IMG/VR virus record: IMGVR_UViG_3300031873_000001
Location: 62,001-126,000 of that record
Origin: a virus
DNA length: 64,000 bases
Reading direction: 5' to 3' (one strand)
Position numbers and translations under genes: made by a program. Shown here piece by piece: positions 21,298-62,276 of the stretch (positions are counted from its first letter, which is position 1; every line of letters begins with the position of its first letter). The notes beneath the pieces are model-generated. The model worked only from the letters and a program-made list of their open reading frames with translations. It was not told the DNA's origin and made no database searches.

Positions 21298-22152
21298 ATG
21301 AGCCTCTATTTCACAGCTAGGGATCAGAAGGTTTATCACGGGGACTTCCTTAAGGCGAAGGACGTTCCTGCAGGGTCGGTCGATCTGATAGTTACGTCAC
21401 CGCCGTATAACGTCGGGATTAACTACTCCGGCCACGAGGACAACCTTCCCTACGATGAGTTCCTCAAGTTCAGCGAGACCTGGATGGCGAAGTGTTTCCG
21501 GTTGGCGAAAGACGATTGCCGTTTCTGTTTGAACGTGCCGTTCAACACGCACAAGTGGGGGCATCGGGGGACGCTGGCCGACTTCACTTGGCTCGCCCAG
21601 AAGGTCGGTTGGCTGTATCACTCGACCGTCGTGTGGAACAAGCAGGCAGTTCCAAGCCGGACAGCCTGGGGATCGTGGATGTCAGCGAGTGCCCCGCACA
21701 TCCTTCAACCTGCGGAGGCCATCGTCGTCCTCTACAAGAAGAACTGGGCGAAGAACAAAGCGGGGGAGTCGAATATCACCCGGGAGGAGTTCATTGAATG
21801 GACGATCGGGATCTGGAACATCGGAGGGGAGGATCCCGCAGTGGCCGGACACCCGGCGCCTTTTCCCGTCGAGCTTCCCCGAAGGTGTATGCGCCTCTTG
21901 AGCTACGTCGGGGACACCGTGCTGGATCCCTTCGTCGGATCGGGGACGACTCTGGTGGCCTGCGCGCTCGATCGACGAATAGGGATCGGCTTCGAGAAAG
22001 ACGTTGCTTACTGTGAGGTCACAAAGAATAGACTGGTTCGGGACGGGATGGTTTTGCAGGAGGGTCTATTCGATCATCTCGAACGTGGGGAGACCTGCTT
22101 TCTGAAAACCAAACCGCAGGGGACGTTCCTCGAGGAGCTAGAGTTTGAGTAG
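21298..22152 (+). CDS. DNA amino-methyltransferase 1
   Basis: 284 aa. TSPPYNVG is the catalytic motif IV of N4-cytosine/N6-adenine beta-class enzymes, and DPFVGSGTT near residue 210 binds SAM. Short leader after a consensus promoter. No restriction partner is seen; it probably protects phage DNA. Confidence 0.85.
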   Translation: MSLYFTARDQKVYHGDFLKAKDVPAGSVDLIVTSPPYNVGINYSGHEDNLPYDEFLKFSETWMAKCFRLAKDDCRFCLNVPFNTHKWGHRGTLADFTWLAQKVGWLYHSTVVWNKQAVPSRTAWGSWMSASAPHILQPAEAIVVLYKKNWAKNKAGESNITREEFIEWTIGIWNIGGEDPAVAGHPAPFPVELPRRCMRLLSYVGDTVLDPFVGSGTTLVACALDRRIGIGFEKDVAYCEVTKNRLVRDGMVLQEGLFDHLERGETCFLKTKPQGTFLEELEFE

Positions 22153-22978
22153 GGAGTTAATCTCGAAGGTTTACGAAGGTGATTGCCTCGAGGTTCTCCG
22201 GAGCCACGAGGCTGATAAATTCGATCTCATTATGACGTCGCCTCCCTACGCCGATCGCCGGAAGAAAACGTATCAGGGTGTCCCTCCGGAGAAGTATGTG
22301 GAATGGTTTCTCCCCCGCAGTGAGCAGTTCCTGCGGACCCTGAAGCCGACCGGGACGTTCATCTTAAATATCAAGGAGAGTGCGGAGAACGGACAGCGGC
22401 TTACCTACGTCCTCGAATTGATTCTGGCGTTGGTCGATCAGGGATGGCTGTGGACGGAGGAGTTTATCTGGAACAAGGTCTGCTGTTATCCCGGGAAGTG
22501 GCCGAACCGATTCCGGGATGCCTGGGAGCGTCTCCTGCAGTTCAACAAGACGCCGAAGTTCAAGATGTTCCAGGATCGGGTGATGATTCCGGCCAGCGAG
22601 CGGACGGTCACCCGGGCTAAGAAAATGCGGGGCGACGACTACGTCCGGAGGACGAATAAGACGCAGAGCGGATTCGGGTCCAGGATCGCAAACTGGGTTG
22701 GTCGGACGAAGGTCTATCCGACGAACGTTTTGACCCTGCCGACCGAGACGCAGAACCGGATTCACAGTGCCGCATTCCCGCAGGTGCTTCCGGAGTGGTT
22801 TATCACGCTGTTCACGGACGAGTGGGACTGGGTTCTGGATCCGTTTGTGGGGGTTGGGACGACGCTCGATGCGTCGATCAAGCTCAACCGTCATTCGGTG
22901 GGCATCGAATTGAAACCGAGCTATGCGAAGATTGCAGAAGACCATACGCAAAAGTCCAGGGCACTGTTCTTCTTCTAA
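22145..22978 (+). CDS. DNA amino-methyltransferase 2
   Basis: 277 aa, TTG start overlapping the previous gene's end. Motif IV TSPPYAD near residue 30 and SAM-binding DPFVGVGTT near residue 235. A second specificity alongside the first enzyme. The target sequence cannot be read from the protein by eye. Confidence 0.85.
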   Translation: MSRELISKVYEGDCLEVLRSHEADKFDLIMTSPPYADRRKKTYQGVPPEKYVEWFLPRSEQFLRTLKPTGTFILNIKESAENGQRLTYVLELILALVDQGWLWTEEFIWNKVCCYPGKWPNRFRDAWERLLQFNKTPKFKMFQDRVMIPASERTVTRAKKMRGDDYVRRTNKTQSGFGSRIANWVGRTKVYPTNVLTLPTETQNRIHSAAFPQVLPEWFITLFTDEWDWVLDPFVGVGTTLDASIKLNRHSVGIELKPSYAKIAEDHTQKSRALFFF

Positions 22979-23241
22979 GGTGACTTCACTGATGTGCGCC
23001 AGGGTCCAGGTGCTCTACATGATGAGGCCGGGATGTAAAGTGAGGGACCGGATACTGGAAACGCTCGGAGATAATCTCCATAAGGGCGGGATCCTTAGAA
23101 CGTGGAAAGCGTGGGACAGGATAATGGCGATGGTGATTACGTCCATGCGGAGGAGGACAAAACAGCCTCGTCGGGAAGAGCTATTGGGTAGGGTCCTGGA
23201 CGGTATCGAATTTATGCTTCGGAAGAACGGGTATCGCAGAT
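22979..23241. other. Gap between methyltransferase 2 and tRNA-Glu
   Basis: 263 bp. A frame open from about 22992 to 23384 runs through the tRNA and into the next gene, so it is not trusted as a gene. No other structure was noticed. Confidence 0.4.
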
Positions 23242-23317
23242 CGGGGCGTGGTGTAGTCCGGCCTAACACACCTGCCCTTCAAGCAGGCGATCATGGGTTC
23301 AAATCCCATCGCCCCGA
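23242..23317 (+). tRNA. tRNA-Glu (TTC), C33
   Basis: Acceptor CGGGGCG/CGCCCCG; anticodon loop CCTTCAA, so position 33 is C rather than U. T-loop TTCAAAT. CCA is not encoded. The D-arm (GTGGTGTAGTCCGGCC) resembles archaeal tRNA-Glu. It lies apart from the main array. Confidence 0.85.
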
Positions 23318-23376
23318 CAAGGGAGCTATTACAGTCCGGAGCCCACGACGTGCCCGAACCATAATTTTAAACCTGG

Positions 23377-24930
23377 ATGGTTAAGCTCTTCATCGGAGAT
23401 GCCCGGGACGTGCTGGCCGCCCTGCCGGAGAAGAGCGTCCACGCCGTAATAACCAGCCCGCCCTACTACGGACTCCGGGCGTATAAGAGTCCACCTTCCG
23501 TGTGGGGAGGTAAGAGGGACTGCAAGCACAAGTGGGGGGCTACGATCCCTCACCCCATGCGAAAGTCTGGCCAGCACGGTCCGGGGAGCTGTGTGGCGGT
23601 CGGGACGAAGGCCGCTCAGCACGGGCTCAGGAAGACGGGGGATCAAGGATGCTTCTGTGGGCGTTGCGGGGCGTGGAGGGGTGTCCTTGGCATGGAGCCT
23701 ACCCTGGAGCTCTACGTGGAGCATCTGGGCGTGATTGGGGAGGGTATCCGGAGGGTCTTGCGGGACGACGGGATATTCTGGCTTAACCTCGGAGACTCCT
23801 ATATGGGGAGCGGCGGTCCAGGCGGGGATTTCCGAGACGGGAAGGGAGGAGACATCTACTGCCGACCCTACAACCGGAGTGGGGACGGCCTCAAGATGAA
23901 GGACATGTGCGCCGTGCCGTGGAGGGTCGCCCTGGCCTTCCAGATGAGCGGCTGGTGGCTACGATCCGACTGCATCTGGAAGAAGGAGAACGTCATGCCC
24001 GAGAGCATCGACGGATGGCGTTGGGAGAAGCACAGGGTGAAAGTGAAGAATCTCCGGAAGGCGTCTACCGAGTGGGCTACCAAGAGCGGGAATACTTCGG
24101 GAGACGCCGGGCCGGGCCTGTCCCACAATCCCTGGGCTGAATATAAGCCCTGCCCCGGGTGTGCGGAGTGCCTCCCGAACGATGGCCTCGTTCTTCGGAG
24201 GGGAGCGTGGAGGCCGACGAAGGCTCACGAGTACGTCTTTATGTTTACGAAGGGCGAGCGTTACTTCGGAGACGGGGATGCTGTCAGGGAAGAGGCCGTC
24301 ACCTCGGAGTGGCCGGGGATCGGACCGAAGCACATCTCAGCACGGTCCAGGCTTGAAGAATACGTTCCGATGGAAACCAGGGAGACCCGAAACCGCAGGA
24401 CGGTCTGGACGATCAACACGACGGGATTCAAAGGCGCCCACTTCGCCACCTTCCCTCCGGCCCTCGTGGAGGTCATGGTGAACGTGTCGACGAGCTTCCG
24501 GGGCGTCTGCAGGAAGTGCGGATCCCAGTGGGCCCGGGTCGTGAACCGGAAGAGCCTCGAGCGTCACGAGCTCGACCGAACAGATCCACGGTTCCGTCCG
24601 TCAAGATACAAGGGGAAATACGGAGAGCTCAAAGGCGAGACGGGGAACGCCCAACGGTATGTGGAGATCGAACATCTCGGATGGCGACCGACGTGCAAGT
24701 GCAACGCCGGGGAGCCCATTCCGGCAGTCGTCCTGGATCCATTCGTGGGATCGGGGACAGCCTGCTTCGAGGCCCAGCGTCTCGGGAGGGATGCCATCGG
24801 GATAGACGTCTCGGATGAGTATATCCAGATGAGCCTGAAGAGGGTGCGGGACGATGCCCCGCTGTTCAATCAGGTCGAAGTGATTTACGCGAATGGCCGG
24901 GTGAAGCGATGTGCTGGCGCCAGCAGGTAG
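23377..24930 (+). CDS. DNA amino-methyltransferase 3
   Basis: 517 aa. TSPPYYGLR near the start and DPFVGSGTA near residue 453. The middle has two Cys pairs (HKWG..., CFCGRC; CPGCAEC; CRKCGS), so it carries zinc ribbons. Related in layout to the enzyme at 29778. The stop lies beside the palindrome at 24912. Confidence 0.85.
   Translation: MVKLFIGDARDVLAALPEKSVHAVITSPPYYGLRAYKSPPSVWGGKRDCKHKWGATIPHPMRKSGQHGPGSCVAVGTKAAQHGLRKTGDQGCFCGRCGAWRGVLGMEPTLELYVEHLGVIGEGIRRVLRDDGIFWLNLGDSYMGSGGPGGDFRDGKGGDIYCRPYNRSGDGLKMKDMCAVPWRVALAFQMSGWWLRSDCIWKKENVMPESIDGWRWEKHRVKVKNLRKASTEWATKSGNTSGDAGPGLSHNPWAEYKPCPGCAECLPNDGLVLRRGAWRPTKAHEYVFMFTKGERYFGDGDAVREEAVTSEWPGIGPKHISARSRLEEYVPMETRETRNRRTVWTINTTGFKGAHFATFPPALVEVMVNVSTSFRGVCRKCGSQWARVVNRKSLERHELDRTDPRFRPSRYKGKYGELKGETGNAQRYVEIEHLGWRPTCKCNAGEPIPAVVLDPFVGSGTACFEAQRLGRDAIGIDVSDEYIQMSLKRVRDDAPLFNQVEVIYANGRVKRCAGASR
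24912..24925. repeat. Palindrome, copy 2 of 3
   Basis: TGCTGGCGCCAGCA, a 14-bp self-complementary core identical to the centre of the copies at 2447 and 57530. It forms the last codons of methyltransferase 3 and precedes the tRNA array. Confidence 0.8.
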
Positions 24931-24933
24931 CGT

Positions 24934-24961
24934 TGCGGGGTAGACCAACAGTAAGTCAGGG
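24934..24961 (+). pseudogene. 5' half of a tRNA (fMet-like acceptor)
   Basis: TGCGGGG, TA and a D-arm GACC...GTC. It lacks a matching 3' part nearby; the complementary 3' acceptor CCCCGCA plus ACCA lies at 25779-25789. A second similar 5' half (GCGGGATAGACC...GTAAGTCAG) follows at about 24966-24992. Confidence 0.6.
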
Positions 24962-24965
24962 GCGT

Positions 24966-24992
24966 AGCGGGATAGACCAATCCGGTAAGTCA
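24966..24992 (+). pseudogene. Second tRNA 5'-half repeat
   Basis: AGCGGGATAGACCAATCCGG and onward repeats the acceptor-plus-D-arm pattern of 24934 about 34 nt later. No anticodon arm follows; the intact fMet-type tRNA starts directly after it. Confidence 0.5.
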
Positions 24993-24997
24993 GAAGG

Positions 24998-25072
24998 GGC
25001 GGGGTGGAGCAATAGCAACTCGTCAGGCCCATAACCTGAAAATTCTCGGTGCGAATCCGAGCCCCGCTCCCA
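24998..25072 (+). tRNA. tRNA-fMet (CAT), C33
   Basis: Acceptor GGCGGGG/CCCCGCT with G-U at 1-72, as initiators have a weak first pair; disc C, CCA encoded. Body GGGGTGGAGCA resembles bacterial initiator tRNA. Anticodon loop CCCATAA (C33). T-loop TGCGAAT is odd, lacking T54-T55. Confidence 0.8.
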
Positions 25073-25083
25073 GATTAAGAAGA

Positions 25084-25689
25084 TTATAGTAATCCGTTTT
25101 CATGTTCCCAGTGATGGTTAGGGCAGAGATAAGAAAGGTTCTTGATATTGTTAATTTCAGATATGAAAGCCGTGTCCGGGAAGTCTGCGACCCTTTTATT
25201 GTGAGAGCATTCAACGTGTTTTCGATATCCACAGATTCTACATTTTGCTTTAATCCCGGATTTCCTTATGATCAGTCTTGCCATGCGAGCTATTTTGCTC
25301 CTAGCTAATTGCCAAGTGTTCTTTGATTTAAAGAATTCGCCTTTGGTTTTGCTCGCAATGCTTCTTTCGAACTTGATAATTTGAAGGCAGTCATTGCAAA
25401 ACCGTCTTTTGAAATTATATTGAATGGGATATGAACCGTGGCATCGTTCACATTCATAGGAGTATGTTTTGTGGGTTCGGCGTCTTCGGGCATTATTGAA
25501 AATTGCGGCACAAGTGTGGTTGCAGAAGCATTTGGATTTCGTTTCTCCAACCTTGTGGCCATCTGGAACCTCGATAACCTTATGGCATTGAAGGCAGACT
25601 GAGGGATGCTTGTAATATTTTTTGAGGGCCCGTTCTCTGAGGATTTTAGCTGTGGCTATGCCACCGGCGGACTGCCATACTTTTCTCAT
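25084..25689 (-). CDS. HNH endonuclease inside a split tRNA, antisense
   Basis: 201 aa on the minus strand, the only confident minus-strand gene here. Zinc fingers CLQCHK, CFCNHTC, CERCHG, CNDC and CRICGY lead to an HNH end (VECSHNKRVADFPD...LCPNHHWEHENG). AT-rich. It lies between tRNA 5' halves plus an intact fMet tRNA and the leftover 3' half. Confidence 0.85.
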   Translation of the reverse strand: MRKVWQSAGGIATAKILRERALKKYYKHPSVCLQCHKVIEVPDGHKVGETKSKCFCNHTCAAIFNNARRRRTHKTYSYECERCHGSYPIQYNFKRRFCNDCLQIIKFERSIASKTKGEFFKSKNTWQLARSKIARMARLIIRKSGIKAKCRICGYRKHVECSHNKRVADFPDTAFISEINNIKNLSYLCPNHHWEHENGLL

Positions 25690-25734
25690 GGGTATCTCCG
25701 ATTTAGGTTACGGTTAAATCATAGCACAGTAGGG

Positions 25735-25789
25735 TTACGGAAAGCAAGTCCTTGTCGGATTCTGGGTGCGACTCCCAGCCCCGCAACCA
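25735..25789 (+). pseudogene. 3' half of a split tRNA (fMet-like)
   Basis: T-arm CTGGG TGCGACT CCCAG, then CCCCGCA, A and CCA. Very similar to the 3' end of the intact fMet tRNA, including the unusual TGCGA T-loop. Its acceptor pairs perfectly with TGCGGGG at 24934-24940. Left end approximate. Confidence 0.65.
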
Positions 25790-25802
25790 GGACTTATAAA
25801 AG

Positions 25803-25891
25803 GGCGGGCTGATGAAATGGTAGACAAGTGAGGCTTAAACCCTCATGGCCTTTACATAGCCGTCTGGGTCCGAATCCCAGGCCCGCCACCA
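25803..25891 (+). tRNA. tRNA-Leu (TAA)
   Basis: Acceptor GGCGGGC/GCCCGCC, A, CCA. Anticodon loop CTTAAAC with U33. Long variable arm as expected for Leu. Confidence 0.95.
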
Positions 25892-25892
25892 T

Positions 25893-25969
25893 AGGAGCGT
25901 AGTTCAATGGATCAGAACGCACGGCTCCAACCCGTGTTGATAGGGGTTCAAATCCTCTCGCTCCTGCCA
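25893..25969 (+). tRNA. tRNA-Trp (CCA)
   Basis: Acceptor AGGAGCG/CGCTCCT, G73, CCA. Loop CTCCAAC, U33. Confidence 0.95.
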
Positions 25970-25975
25970 AAAATT

Positions 25976-26051
25976 GGGGATGTATTTCAATGGCGAGAAT
26001 GCCTGCCCTACAAGCAGGAGATTGGAGGTTCGAGTCCTCCCGTCCCCACCA
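25976..26051 (+). tRNA. tRNA-Val (TAC), C33
   Basis: Acceptor GGGGATG/CGTCCCC, A, CCA. Stem CCTGC/GCAGG, loop CCTACAA, so C33. Confidence 0.93.
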
Positions 26052-26052
26052 G

Positions 26053-26128
26053 AGGCCCTTAGCTCAAATGGAAGAGCGCCGGTCTCATAAGCCGAAGGTT
26101 CCGGGTTCGATTCCCGGAGGGCCCACCA
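26053..26128 (+). tRNA. tRNA-Met elongator (CAT), or Ile2
   Basis: Acceptor AGGCCCT/AGGGCCC with an A-C mismatch at 1-72; CCA encoded. Loop CTCATAA, U33. Could be an Ile tRNA modified at C34; the sequence alone does not decide. Confidence 0.9.
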
Positions 26129-26131
26129 AAC

Positions 26132-26216
26132 GGGGGAGTGGTGAAATTTGGTAGACACGCTGGTTCCAGACACCAGTGCTTATGGCGTAAGGGTTCAAAT
26201 CCCTTCTCCCCCACCA
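26132..26216 (+). tRNA. tRNA-Leu (CAG), C33
   Basis: Acceptor GGGGGAG/CTCCCCC, CCA. Stem CTGGT/ACCAG, loop TCCAGAC, C33. Confidence 0.93.
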
Positions 26217-26220
26217 ATGT

Positions 26221-26295
26221 TCTGGCGTGACTCAACGGTAGAGTGCCCGCCTGTTAAGCGGGTTGTTGGAGGTTCGACTCCTCCCGCCAGAGCCA
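26221..26295 (+). tRNA. tRNA-Asn (GTT)
   Basis: Acceptor TCTGGCG/CGCCAGA, G, CCA. Loop CTGTTAA, U33. Confidence 0.95.
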
Positions 26296-26299
26296 GAAT

Positions 26300-26373
26300 G
26301 CCGATGTAGCTCAACCCGGTAGAGCAACGCACCTGTAATGCGAAGGTTGGGGGTTCGACTCCTCTCGTCGGCT
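26300..26373 (+). tRNA. tRNA-Thr (TGT), C33
   Basis: Acceptor GCCGATG/CGTCGGC; CCA not encoded. Stem CGCA/TGCG, loop CCTGTAA, C33. Confidence 0.92.
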
Positions 26374-26376
26374 TAT

Positions 26377-26449
26377 GGTGGCCGTCGTCCAACGGTAGGA
26401 CACGTGGCTGTGGCCCACGGAACAGGAGTTCGACACTCCCCGGTCACCC
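26377..26449 (+). tRNA. tRNA-His (GTG)
   Basis: Acceptor GGTGGCC/GGTCACC, C73. Loop CTGTGGC, U33. Confidence 0.93.
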
Positions 26450-26457
26450 CAAGATAT

Positions 26458-26534
26458 CGCGGCATCGCCAAGTGGCTAAAGGCGGCGGTCTGCAGAACCG
26501 CTATGCGGGGGTTCGACTCCCCCTGCCGCGTCCA
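26458..26534 (+). tRNA. tRNA-Cys (GCA)
   Basis: Acceptor CGCGGCA/TGCCGCG, T73, CCA. Loop CTGCAGA, U33. Confidence 0.95.
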
Positions 26535-26538
26535 GAAT

Positions 26539-26611
26539 GCTGGCATAGCTCAAACGGTAGAGCGTCTCTTTCGTAAGGAGAAGGTTGGGGGTTCGATGCC
26601 TCTTGCCAGCT
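26539..26611 (+). tRNA. tRNA-Thr (CGT)
   Basis: Acceptor GCTGGCA/TGCCAGC; CCA not encoded. Loop TTCGTAA, U33. Confidence 0.93.
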
Positions 26612-26633
26612 TTAACCAAAGGAGGGATGCGAG

Positions 26634-26870
26634 ATGAAGAAATCGGTTAGGTCTCACAAGAAGAAGGAGCCGGAGATTCCGGCGAGAGGGACGGTGGCCT
26701 GGGCCGACAAGCAGTTAGGCGAGCGTCAATTTAAGGCTCTGGTCGAGCGGGGAAACTCGAAGGAGAGCCTTCAAGCCTTCTGCTTCTTTGCCGGGAAGGT
26801 GGAAGGGATCATGGAAGTTCGGGGGATTCTGTCCACGGTCCGGATCCCGAAGGTCAAGAAGAAAGGGTGA
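26634..26870 (+). CDS. Small basic protein inside the tRNA array
   Basis: 78 aa with AAAGGAGGG and the GGATGCGAGATG leader seen at 8408 and 29483. Lys-rich ends, a helical middle (ERQFKALVERGNSKESLQAF). The last codons overlap the first bases of tRNA-Tyr. Function unknown. Confidence 0.65.
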   Translation: MKKSVRSHKKKEPEIPARGTVAWADKQLGERQFKALVERGNSKESLQAFCFFAGKVEGIMEVRGILSTVRIPKVKKKG

Positions 26871-26953
26871 GGTGCCAGAGTCCGGTCGATTGGGTCCGCC
26901 TGTAGAGCGGAAGCCGACAAGCCACGCAGGTTCAAATCCTGCCCTCACCACCA
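26866..26953 (+). tRNA. tRNA-Tyr (GTA)
   Basis: Acceptor GGTGAGG/CCTCACC, A, CCA; loop CTGTAGA, U33; long variable arm. Its acceptor 5' strand includes the stop codon of the upstream gene. Confidence 0.94.
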
Positions 26954-26960
26954 ATTTCAG

Positions 26961-27047
26961 GGAGAGTGTCCGGTTGGTCGAGGAAGCGGTTCCGAAAACC
27001 GTTACCGTTAACTGCGGTCGAGGGTTCGATTCCCTCACTCTCCGCCA
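26961..27047 (+). tRNA. tRNA-Ser (CGA), C33
   Basis: Acceptor GGAGAGT/ACTCTCC, G, CCA. Loop TCCGAAA, C33. Long variable arm. Confidence 0.93.
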
Positions 27048-27052
27048 TAGAT

Positions 27053-27139
27053 GGAGGGCGATCCGGCTGGTACGAGGAGGCAGTCCTGAAAACTGCTGGC
27101 GTGTAAAAGCGCTCGGGGGTTCGAGTCCCCTGCCCTCCG
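27053..27139 (+). tRNA. tRNA-Ser (TGA), C33
   Basis: Acceptor GGAGGGC/GCCCTCC, G; CCA not encoded. Stem GCAGT/ACTGC, loop CCTGAAA, C33. Confidence 0.93.
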
Positions 27140-27147
27140 CTGTAATG

Positions 27148-27235
27148 GGAGACGTGATCGAGAGGCTTAAGATGGCTGTCCGGAAAGCAGTCGAGCTGAA
27201 AAGCTCCCCGGGTTCAAATCCCGGCGTCTCCGCCA
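27148..27235 (+). tRNA. tRNA-Ser (GGA), C33
   Basis: Acceptor GGAGACG/CGTCTCC, G, CCA. Loop CCGGAAA, C33. All three UCN serine tRNAs carry C33, while the AGY one (27654) does not. Confidence 0.93.
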
Positions 27236-27238
27236 TTC

Positions 27239-27314
27239 TGGGGGATCATCTAATTGGATAGGATACGAGGCTCTGACCCTCGGTATCTGGGTTCGAATCC
27301 CAGTCCCTCAGCCA
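27239..27314 (+). tRNA. tRNA-Gln (CTG)
   Basis: Acceptor TGGGGGA/TCCCTCA, G, CCA. Loop CTCTGAC, U33. Confidence 0.94.
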
Positions 27315-27317
27315 AAC

Positions 27318-27401
27318 GTCGGGCTGGCGGAACTTGGTATACGCGAATGGCTCAAACCCATTTGAGCGATCGTCGGGGTTCGAATCCCCGGCCCGACACC
27401 A
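27318..27401 (+). tRNA. tRNA-Leu (CAA)
   Basis: Acceptor GTCGGGC/GCCCGAC, A, CCA. Loop CTCAAAC, U33. Confidence 0.95.
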
Positions 27402-27404
27402 CGA

Positions 27405-27475
27405 TGGGGGATAGGCCAACGGTAGGCCGCAAGGCTTTGAACCTTGTGATGAGGGTTCGACTCCTTCTCCCTCAG
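27405..27475 (+). tRNA. tRNA-Gln (TTG)
   Basis: Acceptor TGGGGGA/TCCCTCA, G; CCA not encoded. Loop CTTTGAA, U33. Confidence 0.94.
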
Positions 27476-27481
27476 CTTAAT

Positions 27482-27566
27482 GCCGAGATGGTGAAACTTG
27501 GTAGACACGCACGTTCGAGGGGCGTGTGCCTTTGGCGTGAGGGTTCAAATCCCTCTCTCGGCACCA
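27482..27566 (+). tRNA. tRNA-Leu (GAG), C33
   Basis: Acceptor GCCGAGA/TCTCGGC, A, CCA. Loop TCGAGGG, C33. Both CUN leucine tRNAs have C33; the UUR ones have U33. Confidence 0.92.
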
Positions 27567-27571
27567 GATTA

Positions 27572-27647
27572 GCCGGAGTAGCTCAAATAGTAGAGCGCAG
27601 GTCTGAAGAGCCTGGCGTAGGCGGCGCGATACCGCCCTCCGGCACCA
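27572..27647 (+). tRNA. tRNA-Phe (GAA)
   Basis: Acceptor GCCGGAG/CTCCGGC, A, CCA. Loop CTGAAGA, U33. T-loop CGCGATA lacks the usual TTC. Confidence 0.92.
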
Positions 27648-27653
27648 GATCCC

Positions 27654-27741
27654 GGAGCGATGGCCGAGTGGTCGAAGGCGACGGTTTGCTAAACCGTTGG
27701 ACTCACGGGTCCCGAATGTTCGAATCATTCTCGCTCCGCCA
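27654..27741 (+). tRNA. tRNA-Ser (GCT)
   Basis: Acceptor GGAGCGA/TCGCTCC, G, CCA. Loop TTGCTAA, U33. Confidence 0.94.
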
Positions 27742-27749
27742 TAAGACGA

Positions 27750-27825
27750 GCGGGTGTAGCTCAGATGGTAGAGCGCCTGTATGCCACGCAGGAGGTCGCG
27801 GGATCGAAACCCGTCACCCGCTCCA
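27750..27825 (+). tRNA. tRNA-Gly (GCC)
   Basis: Acceptor GCGGGTG/CACCCGC, T73, CCA. Loop ATGCCAC, U33. Confidence 0.94.
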
Positions 27826-27829
27826 GATC

Positions 27830-27901
27830 GCAGGTGTGATGCAATGGTAGCAGACCTGGCTTTTAACCAGGGGGTTGGAGGTTCGACTCCTCTCACCTGC
27901 A
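27830..27901 (+). tRNA. tRNA-Lys (TTT)
   Basis: Acceptor GCAGGTG/CACCTGC, A; CCA not encoded. Loop CTTTTAA, U33. Confidence 0.94.
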
Positions 27902-27904
27902 CTA

Positions 27905-27979
27905 GCGGGCGTAGCTCAATGGTAGAGTACCAGATTCTTAATCTGGGTGTTGAGGGTTCCAATCCCTCCGCCCGCACCA
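27905..27979 (+). tRNA. tRNA-Lys (CTT)
   Basis: Acceptor GCGGGCG/CGCCCGC, A, CCA. Loop TTCTTAA, U33. Confidence 0.94.
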
Positions 27980-27985
27980 AGATAC

Positions 27986-28060
27986 GCAGGCACAGCTTAG
28001 GGGTCAAGCATCCGGCTGATATCCGGACGAGCACAGGTTCGATTCCTGTTGCCTGCACCA
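27986..28060 (+). tRNA. tRNA-Ile (GAT)
   Basis: Acceptor GCAGGCA/TGCCTGC, A, CCA. Loop CTGATAT, U33. Confidence 0.94.
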
Positions 28061-28066
28061 GAACGG

Positions 28067-28143
28067 ACGCCCGTAGTTTAACTGGACAGAACGCCAGGCT
28101 ACGAACCTGGAGGCTGGGGGTTCGACTCCTCTCGGGCGTACCA
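28067..28143 (+). tRNA. tRNA-Arg (ACG)
   Basis: Acceptor ACGCCCG/CGGGCGT, A, CCA. Loop CTACGAA, U33. Confidence 0.95.
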
Positions 28144-28146
28144 ATT

Positions 28147-28222
28147 GCGCCTGTAACTCAATGGATCGAGTATCGGGTTTCTACCCCGAGAGTTGAGGGT
28201 TCGACTCCCCCCAGGCGCGCCA
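28147..28222 (+). tRNA. tRNA-Arg (TCT)
   Basis: Acceptor GCGCCTG/CAGGCGC, G, CCA. Loop TTTCTAC, U33. Confidence 0.95.
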
Positions 28223-28224
28223 AC

Positions 28225-28300
28225 ATGCCCGTAGCTCAATGGATAGAGCGTCTGCGTCCTAAGCAGAGGGCTGAGGGTTCGAGTCCCTCCGGGCGTACCA
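28225..28300 (+). tRNA. tRNA-Arg (CCT)
   Basis: Acceptor ATGCCCG/CGGGCGT, A, CCA. Loop GTCCTAA, U33. Sequence close to the next tRNA, so the pair likely arose by duplication. Confidence 0.95.
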
Positions 28301-28309
28301 GAAGATCGT

Positions 28310-28386
28310 ATGCCCGTAGCTCAAATGGATAGAGCGATGGCCTCCGGAGCCGTAGGTTGGAGGTTCGAGTCCTCTCGGGCATACCA
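28310..28386 (+). tRNA. tRNA-Arg (CCG)
   Basis: Acceptor ATGCCCG/CGGGCAT, A, CCA. Loop CTCCGGA, U33. Confidence 0.95.
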
Positions 28387-28398
28387 AAGGAGGAAGCG

Positions 28399-28569
28399 AT
28401 GTGGGCATTGATACAGCATTACTGGTGGATCCCGGTCGGGGTGATCATTCTCTTTGGGATTGAAAGAGGAGCCGATCGAAGGGCCAAGGAGGAGCATGCC
28501 CACCGGGAGGGGCATTGTTTGGATCATTACTGTTCGATCTGTCGGGACCGTATCGATGATGAATTTTAG
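28399..28569 (+). CDS. Small membrane protein with C-terminal Cys/His cluster
   Basis: 56 aa from the ATG at 28399 after AAAGGAGG. One N-terminal membrane segment ([15 protein letters not shown]) and a tail with [12 protein letters not shown]. Sits inside the tRNA array. Function unknown. Confidence 0.65.
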
Positions 28570-28575
28570 GCCATT

Positions 28576-28649
28576 GCGGTTGTGGTGAAGCGATATCATG
28601 TCTGCCTTCCAAGCAGAGGTCGCGGGTTTGATTCCCGCCAGCCGCACCA
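28576..28649 (+). tRNA. tRNA-Gly (TCC)
   Basis: Acceptor GCGGTTG/CAGCCGC, A, CCA. Loop CTTCCAA, U33. T-loop TTTGATT and a D-loop without a clear GG. Confidence 0.9.
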
Positions 28650-28652
28650 TGT

Positions 28653-28694
28653 GGGACCGTCGTCTAACGGGAGGACTACTGGTTTGCACCCGTT
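28653..28694 (+). pseudogene. 5' two-thirds of a split tRNA-Ala (TGC)
   Basis: GGGACCG, D-arm GTC TAACGGGA GGAC, then an anticodon arm with loop TTTGCAC (TGC, U33). The sequence then leaves the tRNA pattern. A matching T-arm and acceptor (GAGGG TTTGACT CCCTC, CGGCTCC, ACCA) lies at 29447-29474. Confidence 0.65.
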
Positions 28695-28723
28695 GACTTC
28701 GGTAAGCCTTCCTATGCTATAAT
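28693..28723 (+). promoter_or_regulatory. Possible promoter within a hairpin
   Basis: TTGACT (28693-28698), a long 19-nt spacer and TGCTATAAT (TATAAT 28718-28723), an extended -10. It could drive the endonuclease frame at 28763. The -10 lies in the left arm of the inverted repeat at 28711-28754. Confidence 0.45.
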
Positions 28724-28754
28724 TGCTTGAAGTTTCAAGTAGTTATAGCATAGG
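28711..28754. repeat. 44-nt near-perfect hairpin
   Basis: CCTATGCTATAA (28711-28722) pairs with TTATAGCATAGG (28743-28754), and inside it CTTGAA (28726-28731) pairs with TTCAAG (28734-28739). It marks the left side of the inserted segment in tRNA-Ala and may be an element end or a regulator of the endonuclease. Confidence 0.75.
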
Positions 28755-28762
28755 AGAATGAC

Positions 28763-29359
28763 ATGAAGCAAGATTTATGGGTGCTGGAAGGAGGAATCGA
28801 ACCTCCAGCCGCTACGTTAGGAAAACGAAGGCGAGCAAAGAGGACGGCGTGTGGAACTTGTAAGAAAGGTTTCCTTTAGAGGAAAAGCGGGACGAAACGG
28901 TTTTGCTCGAGAAAGTGTCGGGACATATCGCTTCAGAATAGAGAAGAGCTAAAGTGCTTTACTTGCGGGCGGAAATTCTTTAGGCCAATAGGTCATATCA
29001 AAAAGTCGAAACATGGAATTTTCTTTTGTCGCAGGAAGTGCAAGGACAAAGGGCAAAGATTAGAAGGCGGATGCAGGGAAATATGGCCTTCTCATTATGG
29101 CAAGATAGATGCTACGGGAATCGACTACCGGAGCAAGATGGAGAGGGAACTCAAGCGAGGGTGCGTGGATTGCGGGGAGAAAACGCATTACCTTTTAACC
29201 GTTCATCATATCGATGGAGACAGGGGAAGCCGCAAGAAATCAAACTGGGAAGTGGTCTGTTGGAATCATCATGCTAAAAGGCATTTAAGAAAGACGGCCA
29301 ATGGATGGGTGGTGGCTTGGGGATGCTTAACTCCGAGACGACTTTTGAAGAAGATTTGA
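28763..29359 (+). pseudogene. HNH endonuclease frame broken by one in-frame TAG
   Basis: From the ATG at 28763 the frame reads MKQDLWVLEGGIEPPAATLG... through a zinc finger start (ACGTCKKGF) to TAG at 28877-28879, and continues in the same frame (RFCSRKC, CFTCGRKF, FFCRRKCKD) to a full HNH end (CVDCGEKTHYLLTVHHIDG...VVCWNHHAKRH) at 29359. The stop splits one Cys4 finger. The first codons are the reverse complement of a tRNA T-arm. Either a recent knock-out or a read-through stop. Confidence 0.75.
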
Positions 29360-29368
29360 AAACCGTGT

Positions 29369-29443
29369 GGGCTGGTGGTGTAATTGATAGCATCGTAGAC
29401 CTGCAATCTATGGGTCGGGGTTTGAGTCCCCGCCGGTCCACCA
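29369..29443 (+). tRNA. tRNA-Ala (TGC), C33
   Basis: Acceptor GGGCTGG/CCGGTCC, A, CCA. Stem TAGA/TCTA, loop CCTGCAA, C33. T-loop TTTGAGT. An intact replacement next to the split tRNA-Ala. Confidence 0.92.
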
Positions 29444-29446
29444 AAT

Positions 29447-29474
29447 GAGGGTTTGACTCCCTCCGGCTCCACCA
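29447..29474 (+). pseudogene. 3' part of the split tRNA-Ala
   Basis: T-arm GAGGG TTTGACT CCCTC, acceptor CGGCTCC, A, CCA. The acceptor pairs with GGGACCG at 28653 with one mismatch. Confidence 0.65.
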
Positions 29475-29496
29475 AAAATTAAACGGAGGATGCGAG

Positions 29497-29700
29497 ATGG
29501 ATCAGGCAACGAAGGAGCGGATCGACGGGATGGACTACGAGTCGATGCTCCGGCTGTGGAGGAATGCTCCGGTTGGGGAGCCGTTGTTCCAGGGGGAGAC
29601 GGGGGATTACTTTTCTAAGGTCATGGCAGAGAAGCGGGACGCCCTTCCCGAAGGGGCCCACGTTGCGGCCAGCAAGAAGATAGGATGGACGGGGGCGTAG
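29497..29700 (+). CDS. Unknown small protein, 67 aa
   Basis: ATG after ACGGAGGATGCGAG, the leader shared with 8420 and 26634. An acidic/aromatic helical protein. Its last codons overlap tRNA-Asp. Function unknown. Confidence 0.6.
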   Translation: MDQATKERIDGMDYESMLRLWRNAPVGEPLFQGETGDYFSKVMAEKRDALPEGAHVAASKKIGWTGA

Positions 29701-29766
29701 TTCAGGTGGGAGAACGCCTGATTGTCGATCAGGAGGTCGCGGGTTCGAGTCCGGCCTCCCCGACCA
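29690..29766 (+). tRNA. tRNA-Asp (GTC)
   Basis: Acceptor CGGGGGC/CTCCCCG, A, CCA; a mismatch in the acceptor and one in the T-stem. Loop TTGTCGA, U33. Last tRNA of the array. Confidence 0.88.
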
Positions 29767-29777
29767 AGAGAGGGAAT

Positions 29778-31079
29778 GTGATTCTTAAAGGGCACGTCTT
29801 GGATATCCTTCCCTCGTTAGAATCCGATCACTTTCACGCCGTCGTGACCAGCCCGCCCTACTGGTCGCTCAGAAAATACGACATCCCGGACGTGACCTGG
29901 CCGGATTCCTGGCGTGGTCAGCTCGGCCTTGAGCCAACGATAGGACTTTATGTTTCTCACCTGATTGTCGTATTCCGTGCGGTCAAGAGGGTGCTCAGGC
30001 CGGATGGGACGCTGTGGGTTAATATCGGGGACTCTTACTTCGGGGACAGCCCGGTGAGGTCGAGCTCGATGGAACAGTTCGATCCGACCAAGCAGACCGT
30101 TCTGAAGCGAAGTGCGGGAGGGATTAGGCGATCCGCCGCCTCTACCGATGGCCTAAAGCCAAAGGACCTCTGTTTAATTCCCGCTCGCTTCGCCCTGGCG
30201 ATGCAGGAAGACGGCTGGTGGCTCCGCTCGGACATAATCTGGGCCAAGCCGAACCCCATGCCAGAGGCGGTGGATGGTTGGCACTGGGAAAGGCATAAGA
30301 TTAAAGTGAATGCCGCCCGGCGCCCGAGGCAATGCTTTCACCATTCCGAGGGTCGTGAAATCTCGGTTCCCGTTAGCCAGCAACCGAAGACCGAATGGAC
30401 CGACTGTCCCGGCTGTCCAAAGTGTTCTCCGAATGATGGGCTTGTTCTGGAACGGGGGTCGTGGAGGCCGACCAATTCCTTTGAGCATATTTACATGTTC
30501 ACCAAGTCCCCGAAATACTTCTGCGATGCAGACGCAGTGAGAGAGAAGAATGCCGACCCCACTCGAACTAACTTCACGGCTGGTGGTCGTTCACGTGGAA
30601 TTAACAAGGATAGGAACGATAACGATTTAGGTGAGAGGTCGAAGAATTTTGTGGCCGCAGGGCGAAATCTAAGGTCGGTCTGGGAGATAGTTACGCAACC
30701 CTACCGGGAAGCCCACTTTGCTACCTATCCAGAGGAAGTCCCCCGCCGTTGCATCCTTGCCGGAACGAGCTCGAGAGGGTGTTGCCCGCAGTGTGGGTCT
30801 CCGTGGGCTAGGGTGATTAAGAAATCTTTAATCTCTCTACGCCCAAACTTTGACAAACAACGTGGAAATTATTTATCCCGAACCATCGGATGGCGACGAA
30901 CCTGCGAGCATGACACGTCGGGTATTGCTATTCCTTGCCGGGTGCTGGATCCTTTTATCGGCTCGGGCACGACGGGGAAGGTTGCGGAGAGTCTGAGTCG
31001 GGACTGGGTTGGGATCGACCTGGGATACAAAAGCATGTCTCGAAAACGATCCGTCACGACAATGGGACTAGCGTTATGA
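29778..31079 (+). CDS. DNA amino-methyltransferase 4
   Basis: GTG at 29778 chosen because the longer frame would run through tRNA-Asp. 433 aa. TSPPYWSLRKYD near the start, DPFIGSGTT near residue 393, and zinc-ribbon pairs (CPGCPKC, CCPQCGS) as in methyltransferase 3, its likely relative. Confidence 0.85.
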   Translation: MILKGHVLDILPSLESDHFHAVVTSPPYWSLRKYDIPDVTWPDSWRGQLGLEPTIGLYVSHLIVVFRAVKRVLRPDGTLWVNIGDSYFGDSPVRSSSMEQFDPTKQTVLKRSAGGIRRSAASTDGLKPKDLCLIPARFALAMQEDGWWLRSDIIWAKPNPMPEAVDGWHWERHKIKVNAARRPRQCFHHSEGREISVPVSQQPKTEWTDCPGCPKCSPNDGLVLERGSWRPTNSFEHIYMFTKSPKYFCDADAVREKNADPTRTNFTAGGRSRGINKDRNDNDLGERSKNFVAAGRNLRSVWEIVTQPYREAHFATYPEEVPRRCILAGTSSRGCCPQCGSPWARVIKKSLISLRPNFDKQRGNYLSRTIGWRRTCEHDTSGIAIPCRVLDPFIGSGTTGKVAESLSRDWVGIDLGYKSMSRKRSVTTMGLAL

Positions 31080-31500
31080 ATGATCAGATTATAAATCCGG
31101 AGGCGGTTCTGGATCCGCAGGGATCGCAGAAGGAGTTCCTCGTGGCGGTGACTACGGAGACGCCGGGGGAGGTGGCTTGGAAGCGGGAGCTCGGGGAGGA
31201 GATAACCGTTCCCGGCCTTGAGGAGTTCCGGCTGTTTATCCAGCGACCCATCCAGTTACAGAGGTTCAAAGACGGCGTTCCGATGTCCGAGAAGAAGGAA
31301 GGGCTTTGCGTCGTCGAGGTCACTACGGGCAGGATACTTTTCAGTTTGGATTATAATGCTTCTCTCGATGAAGTATTTCGCTATACCACTACCTTTCTCG
31401 GTGCGGAGGGTCGGATCGAAGCGATGAGAAACGCTTTGGCGATCTTCGATTTGGCGCCTTTCGTTCCGGATGGGGAAATCCGAGTTAAGGAGCCAATCTG
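31076..31500 (+). CDS. Unknown protein, ends IRVKEPI
   Basis: 140 aa, ATG overlapping the upstream TGA. Mixed alpha/beta, no family recognised. The end GEIRVKEPI is a weak match to the shared C-terminal motif (compare FGVKEGI at 11979 and FLREPI at 10564). Confidence 0.6.
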
Positions 31501-31725
31501 ATGGATGCTAAAAAGCTGATAGAGTTCATGCAGTCCGACCAGTTCGATGAGATGAGCAAGCATCTTATGGAGAAAGTTGTCCCTCGGTATCTCCGGGGAA
31601 CGGTTGCCGTTGCCCCGATAAGAAAATGCCAGAAAGAGAAGTTCCTTCGGAAGATCAACGGGGGGCTTAATATGGCGCAGTCAGCTCATGGGATCGCACG
31701 GCAGTTTATCAGGAGGAAAACATGA
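31501..31725 (+). CDS. Unknown small basic protein, 74 aa
   Basis: Starts directly after the previous stop. Helical, with a basic C-terminal half. No family recognised. Confidence 0.55.
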   Translation: MDAKKLIEFMQSDQFDEMSKHLMEKVVPRYLRGTVAVAPIRKCQKEKFLRKINGGLNMAQSAHGIARQFIRRKT

Positions 31726-32399
31726 ACCCCGAGCTTGGTAGACTGAGGGCCCGCTGTAACGTCGTCCCTCGTTGGTTTCACAGGATTTCGATCAAGAAGG
31801 TGGGCAACGATTGGTTTCAGACGCCCGGGACGGAGCCTGCCGAGTTCTCCCTCTGGAAGATTAAAGCCATCCCCGCCGTGACCGGGAAGAAGTGCTTGGA
31901 CGTCGGCGCCTGGGATGGGCTGTTTACGTTCTACCTTCGGGAGCAGGGGGCTTCGGATGTCTTGGCGATCGACTCCTACCAGAACAAAGTCGGAATGAAA
32001 GGCTTCGAGCTCGCCCGGGAACTTCTCAACGAGGTGGGGAGGCCGGTGGACGGGATCCGCTACCTACACATGGACGTCCGGGATCTACCGTCCCTCAAGG
32101 AGGAGTTCGATGTCTCCCTTTTCTTCGGGACGATCTATCACCTGGAAGACCCCTATATGGCCATGAAGGTTCTTGCTCGGCTGACGAGGCAGTGCATGGT
32201 CTTGGAGGGGCATTTTATCAAGGGAGACGATCCGATCGGCTACTTCTACAACCCCCGGCAATTGAATAACGATGACACCAATTATTGGGGGCTTACGCTT
32301 CCCTGCATTGTGCGAATGGCGACCCGGGCCGGATTCAAGAAGCATGAGATGGTGGACACTATGGGTGACCGCTGTCTCATTCGCTTTTTCAAGGAGTAA
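31722..32399 (+). CDS. SAM methyltransferase, CmoB/DUF1698-like (copy A)
   Basis: 225 aa. FSLWKIKAIP is followed by the SAM loop CLDVGAWDGLF and IDSYQ, then TIYHLEDPYMAM, the order seen in CmoB-like proteins (tRNA wobble-uridine carboxymethyl transfer) and in related sugar O-methyltransferases. A paralogue is at 39959. The glycosyltransferase context favours glycan methylation; wobble modification of phage tRNAs is the alternative. Confidence 0.7.
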   Translation: MNPELGRLRARCNVVPRWFHRISIKKVGNDWFQTPGTEPAEFSLWKIKAIPAVTGKKCLDVGAWDGLFTFYLREQGASDVLAIDSYQNKVGMKGFELARELLNEVGRPVDGIRYLHMDVRDLPSLKEEFDVSLFFGTIYHLEDPYMAMKVLARLTRQCMVLEGHFIKGDDPIGYFYNPRQLNNDDTNYWGLTLPCIVRMATRAGFKKHEMVDTMGDRCLIRFFKE

Positions 32400-32401
32400 C
32401 A

Positions 32402-33397
32402 ATGAAGAGCATAGCCGTCTTAGGACCTACTGGAATGCTCGGGTCGATGGTCTTGGATTACTTCTACCAGGGCGTTCTCGATGGGGCGTGTCATCTGGTG
32501 GCCATAGGTCGGTTTCCAATCCGGGAAGAGGATCCCGAACCCGATCTCTACGTTAAGCTGAAGGAGTCCTACCCCGGAGTGGAGTTCCGACACCTGGATG
32601 CCGAGCTTTGTGTGTCGGGAGATGTCGGAGAATCTCTAAAGGGCGTGGATTGGGTCGTGAATTGCATCGGGGTGATCAACAAGCATATCGTAGAAAATGA
32701 CCGGGAGAGCGTCGAGCGGGCGGTTCGGGTGAATGCGATCTTCCCGTACCTCCTTGCGGTCACCTCGGAGTGGGAGAGCTTCCGGGTGATGCAGATTAAC
32801 ACGGACTGCGTGTTCTCGGGGCAGACAGGATTATACTCAGAGAACGCTCTCCATGATGCTACCGACGTCTACGGCAAGACCAAGAGCCTCGGGGAAGTTT
32901 CCTCGGATCGGTTTATCAATCTCCGGTGTTCTCTTGTCGGCCCGGAGCTCAGGACCCACCAGTCCTTGCTCGACTGGTTTCGGAGCCAGGAACGGGGGGC
33001 CAGCGTAAACGGTTTCGTTGGCCATACCTGGAACGGGATAACATCCCTGCACTTCGCCAAGATCTGCTGGGGGATCATGTGGGACTATCGCACGTTGAAG
33101 TTCCGGGGGGTCCAGCACGTCGTCCCCCGGGACCGGATCAATAAGTTTGAGCTCTTGAAGTGTTTTGCTACGGCTTATCATCGGGAGGACATCCGGATCG
33201 TACCGCATCAGGGCAGGGCTCCACATGAGATGGGTTTGGACCGATCGCTGTCAACCGTGTATGCGAATATCAACCGTGAACTATGGAGGCTCGCAGGCTA
33301 CGAAGAGATTCCTACGATTCCGAAGATGGTGGAGGAGCTTGCTTCCTACCATCCGAGGCTTCTGGACAAATCTCTCTCGGCAATCGTCTTGCCATGA
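32402..33397 (+). CDS. RmlD-like NAD(P)H sugar reductase
   Basis: 331 aa Rossmann short-chain reductase: VLGPTGMLGSMV for nucleotide binding, NTDCVFSG and YGKTKSLGE with the catalytic Y-x3-K. Similar to dTDP-4-dehydrorhamnose reductases. Probably makes or modifies a nucleotide sugar for the adjoining glycosyltransferases. Confidence 0.8.
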   Translation: MKSIAVLGPTGMLGSMVLDYFYQGVLDGACHLVAIGRFPIREEDPEPDLYVKLKESYPGVEFRHLDAELCVSGDVGESLKGVDWVVNCIGVINKHIVENDRESVERAVRVNAIFPYLLAVTSEWESFRVMQINTDCVFSGQTGLYSENALHDATDVYGKTKSLGEVSSDRFINLRCSLVGPELRTHQSLLDWFRSQERGASVNGFVGHTWNGITSLHFAKICWGIMWDYRTLKFRGVQHVVPRDRINKFELLKCFATAYHREDIRIVPHQGRAPHEMGLDRSLSTVYANINRELWRLAGYEEIPTIPKMVEELASYHPRLLDKSLSAIVLP

Positions 33398-61960: not shown

Positions 61961-62276
61961 GATGGTTTCGAGAAAGATACGGAAACTGAAGGCGGACTTA
62001 GCGGACGCGAGAACCGCTCTTCTCACGCCCAAGCAGAAGCAAGCCCTGGCGATCGTGCAGGCCAACCCCGGGATCCGGCCTCAGCGGTTTGCGAAGCTGA
62101 TGTGGCCGGACTCGGAGTGCTGGGAGAAGCGGTATCGGTGCGGGAACGGGACCCACAAGGGAGGCGGGATGCACACGGCGGGCGGTGCTTATCTCGGGAA
62201 GCTCCGGAAGCTCAGACTGGTTCATCTCGAAGGGGAGTGGGGACACGAGGGCTACTATGTCTCAAAAAGGGTCTGA
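61926..62276 (+). CDS. Winged-helix-like basic protein, 116 aa
   Basis: Coiled basic N-terminus, then QALAIVQANPGIRPQRFAKLMW and GAYLGKLRKLRLV, a winged-helix pattern, with a CGNGTH insertion. Possibly DNA binding. Confidence 0.55.
   Translation: MRSSDKFKKQVRMVSRKIRKLKADLADARTALLTPKQKQALAIVQANPGIRPQRFAKLMWPDSECWEKRYRCGNGTHKGGGMHTAGGAYLGKLRKLRLVHLEGEWGHEGYYVSKRV

Follow-up and report, generated by a model that had tools for sequence, protein, structure and literature searches.

Ten tRNAs with C33 in the tRNA array of a T4-like phage: a possible escape from host enzymes that read the anticodon loop

Introduction

Why would a virus keep tRNAs that lack U33? This residue, just before the anticodon, is one of the most constant features of tRNAs. 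Ten tRNA genes with C in its place (C33) occur in a tRNA array on a viral DNA stretch of 64,000 nucleotides, hereafter the window (positions 62,001 to 126,000 of IMG/VR record IMGVR_UViG_3300031873_000001, which has 159,536 bases). The original prediction, made from these letters alone, offered two answers: the C33 set helps the phage tRNAs to escape host anticodon nucleases, or it reflects the host's own tRNAs. Both are weighed here, together with other explanations, using a close relative of the phage and surveys of viral and cellular tRNAs.

Ten of the 33 tRNAs carry C33

ARAGORN detected 32 tRNAs at 23242-29766 and Rfam added the 33rd, tRNA-Phe(GAA). Anticodon loops were taken by a script from the predicted structures, that of tRNA-Phe(GAA) being read by eye. 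C33 was confirmed in exactly the ten tRNAs named at the outset and U33 in the other 23. The extent first given, 23242-29443, does hold all ten C33 tRNAs; the array itself continues to a tRNA-Asp at 29766.

23242..29766, + strand: whole tRNA array; 33 tRNAs covering 19 amino acids, all but Pro; 10 with C33 and 23 with U33 (ARAGORN and Rfam)
23242..23318, + strand: tRNA-Glu(UUC); loop CCUUCAA, C33; the sole C33 tRNA with a pyrimidine at 35; identical in the relative (L013)
24998..25072, + strand: tRNA-Met(CAU), initiator-type; loop CCCAUAA, C33; adjoins the 5' half of an older tRNA-Met; the relative's copy is 77% identical, also C33
25976..26051, + strand: tRNA-Val(UAC); loop CCUACAA, C33
26132..26216, + strand: tRNA-Leu(CAG); loop UCCAGAC, C33, also A37
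26300..26373, + strand: tRNA-Thr(UGU); loop CCUGUAA, C33; the relative's copy is 76% identical, with another anticodon stem, also C33
26961..27047, + strand: tRNA-Ser(CGA); loop UCCGAAA, C33
27053..27140, + strand: tRNA-Ser(UGA); loop CCUGAAA, C33
27148..27235, + strand: tRNA-Ser(GGA); loop CCGGAAA, C33
27482..27566, + strand: tRNA-Leu(GAG); loop UCGAGGG, C33
29369..29443, + strand: tRNA-Ala(UGC); loop CCUGCAA, C33; G3:U70 kept; replacement copy, 3'-terminal in an HNH insert; the relative's copy is 65% identical, also C33
27572..27644, + strand: tRNA-Phe(GAA); loop CUGAAGA, U33; found by Rfam, missed by ARAGORN

The 7-nucleotide loops of all ten C33 tRNAs are fixed by anticodon stems of 4-5 base pairs. 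Because these stems are intact, the loops cannot shift to U33. We checked whether a corrected structure might place U at 33, and no re-alignment of the ten loops restored it.

The C33 tRNAs are kept in a close relative

One close relative (IMGVR 3300035660_000001; 160,139 bases), the only one found, came from terminase and methyltransferase searches of the collection. It has the same ten C33 tRNAs, and base 33 is kept in all 32 comparable tRNAs, U33 pairs included. Strongly diverged C33 pairs with different anticodon stems are those of Met, Thr and Ala. Where anticodon stems of the C33 tRNAs differ, both bases of the pair changed in a compensating manner in 11 cases; one further change is one-sided with pairing kept and two break a pair. 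The alanine determinant G3:U70 is present in the tRNA-Ala of both phages. Covariance scores, paired stems and compensatory change between the relatives are as found in functional tRNAs. Because the relative keeps C33, the stems compensate and G3:U70 is retained, the ten C33 tRNAs are, judging from sequence, functional genes under selection and not in decay. Outside this relative, no collected tRNA exceeds ~84% identity to those of the window.

Two of the C33 tRNAs lie in inserts that interrupt an older tRNA of the same kind.

24934..25795, + strand: split tRNA-Met, cut at the anticodon loop; the insert holds an HNH endonuclease open reading frame (ORF) and the intact C33 tRNA-Met; the halves match the uninterrupted gene of the relative (L013)
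25084-25689, - strand: HNH endonuclease ORF in the Met insert; HNH_2 match
28652..29475, + strand: split tRNA-Ala, cut at the anticodon region; an HNH-like ORF is followed by the intact C33 tRNA-Ala; the halves match the uninterrupted gene of the relative (L013)

The HNH-like motif of the Ala-insert ORF was seen in its translation; no Pfam match was obtained for this ORF. Both HNH inserts carry an intact tRNA of the kind that they break, again with C33, and could possibly be a type of homing element that restores the tRNA function it destroys. An origin of the replacement tRNAs outside the lineage would mean that C33 was selected again; an origin in sister phages would mean inheritance and nothing more.

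C33 is rare in viruses and in cells

With the same script, 156 other viral arrays were surveyed. They had been gathered with two patterns independent of position 33, from among the matches listed and not by random draw; redundancy was removed only as identical tRNAs, and the P values below ignore phylogeny. C33 was found in 32 of 1579 tRNAs (2.0%), A33 and G33 in none. Since deviants are always C and never a purine, position 33 is under constraint and these genes are not in decay. No surveyed array had more than four C33 tRNAs and 131 of the 156 had none. At the survey rate, the binomial probability of at least 10 C33 among 33 tRNAs is ~7e-10, the tRNAs being treated as independent.

Among cellular genomes, C33 tRNA-Ser(UGA) was sought in 84,980 species with a pattern covering only the commonest stem and T-arm types, which gave 79 stretches and ~33 verified loci. 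A tRNA-Val(UAC) pattern applied to 398 genomes of one phylum matched with U33 in 56 of them and with C33 in one, the chosen centre itself. The pattern used for C33 tRNA-Val(GAC) in possible host groups matched nothing, so that this search was uninformative. Overall, cellular tRNAs almost always have U33 and C33 is very rare in bacteria.

The C33 tRNAs seen elsewhere are of several kinds. Cultured phages with one to three of them are Phaeobacter phage MD18, DSS3_MAL1 and mycobacteriophage McWolfish; tRNA-Val(GAC) with C33 recurs in MD18 and McWolfish. tRNA-Ile(GAU) with C33 recurs in related viral arrays and in two cultured roseophages (loci such as L025, L058, L061, L073, L084, L096; L682, L683). 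Apparently chromosomal C33 tRNA-Ser(UGA) occurs in several Dehalococcoidia/Chloroflexi bins and in Treponema species (L286, L291, L310, L325, L345; L298, L302, L306, L347).

C33 goes with a purine at position 35

In the window, anticodon base 35 is a purine in 9/10 C33 tRNAs versus 6/23 U33 tRNAs (Fisher P = 6e-4 with the 32 ARAGORN tRNAs; 0.02 when counted per codon box). The bias was also observed in the independent survey, with an odds ratio of 5.7 (P = 7e-5); there, the C33 rate was 4.5% with A35, 2.2% with G35, 0.6% with C35 and 0.7% with U35. Pooling gave an odds ratio of 3.9 (P = 2e-5). The C33 set had first been described as following codon groups. That rule was dropped in favor of the purine-35 rule because the C33 isoacceptors of other phages do not match the window set (7/349 versus 21/1042). 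The codon-group pattern fits the chemistry of the U-turn better than it fits a list of nuclease targets.

Two bonds hold the U-turn, one from N3 of U33 to phosphate 36 and the other from the 2'-OH of residue 33 to base 35 (PMC10516636). With C33, the bond from U33 N3-H to phosphate 36 would be lost. A purine at position 35 would retain the second bond and offset this loss, so that the loop would still turn and decode; the need for this purine would restrict C33 to certain tRNAs. When U33C was placed in yeast tRNA-Gln(CUG), whose base 35 is a pyrimidine, the phenotypes were read as poor decoding (PMC3664417). Protonated cytosine has been described as forming typical U-turns (PMC5311481). We also tried an argument based on triloop folding: predicted U33-A37 pairing was low in isolated stem-loops, except where N32 and N38 also pair, and no clear support was obtained.

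C33 is enriched in viral arrays beside Ro60

A Ro60/TROVE gene lies in or near some of the other C33-bearing arrays. We compared the survey with a systematically gathered set of viral Ro60 loci having arrays of at least 5 tRNAs, from which the one found through C33 was removed. Beside Ro60, 22/315 unique tRNAs carry C33 (7.0%) versus 25/1259 (2.0%) in the survey (odds ratio 3.7, P = 2e-5), and arrays with at least two C33 tRNAs are 6/17 versus 5/97 (P = 0.001). The excess persisted in both of the best-populated G+C strata, at 13/123 versus 5/145 above 60% and 5/107 versus 9/513 at 54-60%.

The trait was also seen in an Eremiobacterota bin, where an array of 19 tRNAs (L512, G002:C221, 8925-12873) has seven with C33 and encloses a Ro60 gene; U33 is present in all 35 remaining tRNAs of the bin. 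This contig was considered as a phage and rejected: with LigB and nitrile hydratase genes, and Ro60 within the array, it looks cellular or accessory.

Ro60 is regarded as an RNA-repair platform (PMC7824862). No match to RtcB or to an RNA ligase (PF09414; ATP-grasp type) was found in the phage record, and none to Ro60 (PF05731) in the phage genome or its relative. Given this lack of repair genes, the phage would be expected to avoid tRNA damage and not to mend it.

C33 as a possible escape from loop-reading host enzymes

Our preferred explanation, which we hold tentatively and at somewhat less than even confidence, is that C33 is a selected and structurally tolerated escape from host enzymes that read the anticodon loop, most likely anticodon nucleases. 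Selection would keep C33 because the loop escapes enzymes recognising either U33 or the normal shape of the loop; the most likely enemies would be VapC-type anticodon nucleases that destroy tRNAs during infection. VapC targets include Leu CAG and GAG (PMC6265470) as well as Ser UCN and fMet (PMC10264068), and these overlap part of the C33 set, with Val, Thr, Glu and Ala outside the overlap. The nuclease-escape proposal is indirectly supported: the relative retains C33 despite tRNA turnover, C33 is enriched beside Ro60 and VapC targets overlap the set.

Several observations weigh against it. The Lys, Tyr, His, Asn, Asp and Arg tRNAs, which are classical targets of PrrC, colicin E5, colicin D and PARIS, have U33 here without exception, and in the literature we found no anticodon nuclease demonstrated to require U33. 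tRNA-Glu(UUC) has C33 despite its pyrimidine 35, which breaks the purine rule, and the isoacceptors of the window match the C33 set of other phages no better than chance. Conservation was measured against one relative at ~90% identity, and taken alone it is weak evidence. The association with Ro60 may partly reflect G+C or array size; no C33 arrays were found at 40 Armatimonadota loci with Ro60, the Myxococcus phage Mx1 combines Ro60 with more than 30 tRNAs that include no C33, and the window phage and its relative have no Ro60 match.

Near-neutral tolerance is the strongest of the other explanations, although we consider it somewhat less likely than escape. U33 would be under weaker selection in phage arrays than in cells, and C33 would arise by transition, be tolerated next to a purine 35 and drift to a high number in this lineage with no enemy enzyme involved. 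The general presence of C33 in viral arrays, at 2%, agrees with this, the purine-35 bias needs nothing more, and the isoacceptor set is lineage-specific. However, drift to ten would be extreme given that most surveyed arrays have no C33 and the maximum elsewhere is four. In addition, the replacement tRNAs for Met and Ala again have C33, and C33 is enriched beside Ro60.

Escape from, or independence of, loop modification seems distinctly less probable. C33 would remove the U33-A37 pairing that is normally blocked by N6-isopentenyladenosine (i6A) or N6-threonylcarbamoyladenosine (t6A), leaving the loops of unmodified phage tRNAs open, or would stop the binding of an enzyme such as MiaA. Bonding between U33 and A37 is said to be prevented by i6A37 (PMC10644310, PMC5874877), and the canonical motif U33...A36A37A38, used by MiaA-type enzymes, occurs in none of the nine tRNAs of the window that read UNN codons (25803-27644): the three Ser tRNAs have C33, the Leu and Trp tRNAs (three) have C38, and Phe, Tyr and Cys have G37. 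All eight UNN readers of the relative lack the motif as well. In the survey, 244/306 UNN-reading tRNAs carry it, and each of the 41 arrays with at least four such tRNAs has at least one copy, the lowest being 1/6. Nevertheless, this explanation covers only 3/10 C33 tRNAs, and the pattern would look no different if the host simply lacked MiaA. Moreover, t6A formation was unaffected by U33C in human mitochondrial tRNA-Thr (PMC7102964), and U33 is no determinant for CmoM (PMC10516636). The missing MiaA-type motif points the same way as C33, towards loop-reading host enzymes, without fixing the enzyme.

That the host's own tRNAs carry C33 and were copied by the phage, the second answer of the original prediction, is very unlikely. 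A few bacteria do have one chromosomal C33 tRNA, e.g. Ser(UGA) in Dehalococcoidales and Treponema loci. The rarity of C33 in the scanned bacterial genomes argues against copying, as do the U33 of the other tRNAs in the bin with the C33-rich accessory array and the low identity of the window tRNAs to any collected tRNA beyond the close relative. We give still less weight to a cytidine deaminase that would edit C33 of the tRNA to U33: C-to-U editing of tRNAs is known elsewhere, yet no PF00383 deaminase match was found in the phage record, and editing predicts neither the purine-35 bias nor a lineage-specific set. Least probable of all is that the loops are misplaced or the tRNAs decaying, since, although broken tRNA halves do occur at the two HNH inserts, the stems fix the loops, stem changes are compensatory, base 33 is only ever a pyrimidine and a relative from another record agrees.

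The phage and the surroundings of the array

Because the record has protein matches to DnaB helicase, primase, UvsX, Gp23 capsid, Gp20 portal, gp19 tail tube, gp25 and terminase, the phage is assigned by sequence to the T4-like myoviruses. For terminase and DnaB helicase, the relatives among isolates are only distant phages of many hosts, not usable for naming the host. The array is best explained as a nearly complete working tRNA set that would free phage translation from the host tRNA pool. In the relative (L066), tRNA-Pro(CGG) and tRNA-Pro(UGG) directly follow tRNA-Asp; in the window, a DNA methyltransferase ORF stands there (29685-31079). Four DNA methyltransferase ORFs of N6/N4 type lie within the array or flank it (window 21298-24930 and 29685-31079). 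ThiF-family and prokaryotic JAB-domain matches were also found among the window ORFs, possibly as parts of a ubiquitin-like system. The phage has an ORF of 1861 codons (L017 7140-12725; record bases 27140-32725); a collagen-repeat match (PF01391, E 2e-192) appeared in the group Pfam scan when this ORF was added.

Relation to known systems

Eukaryotic cytoplasmic initiator tRNA, with anticodon CAU and hence a purine at 35, naturally has C33. The phage fMet tRNA likewise combines C33 and CAU; here nine elongator tRNAs also have C33, in a bacterial virus. An accessory second tRNA set is known too from the Anabaena trn operon (PMC10272220); this cellular array lies on a plasmid, is silent and comes into use when translation is stressed.

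Evasion of anticodon nucleases by loop changes in phage tRNAs has already been proposed. As in the work of van den Berg et al. 2023 (PMC10264068), loops are changed in a tRNA-rich phage and in tRNAs that are VapC targets (Leu, Ser, fMet). That study made its comparison with a known host, and its text does not mention position 33. C1 mycobacteriophages avoid Ser UCN tRNAs (PMC10264068), whereas this phage encodes three, all with C33; in the C1 phage McWolfish, one of the 17 tRNAs read has C33. Large accessory arrays also lie beside Ro60/TROVE in phages, within RNA-repair systems (jumbo phage survey, PMC7824862); in our comparison, the odds of C33 were ~3.7-fold higher in such arrays. The present phage differs in having no Ro60, RtcB or RNA ligase, and its C33 count is above that of any viral Ro60 array seen.

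A wider reading, on which we are more doubtful than on the escape of this one array, is that a second class of tRNAs is maintained by phages and by some Ro60-linked arrays of cells, in which a C33 turn with purine 35 shields the tRNAs from U33-reading enzymes, and that this phage has gone furthest. U33 is regarded as nearly universal and as a requirement for decoding. If the wider reading is true, the C33 turn would be a general shield against enzymes that read U33.

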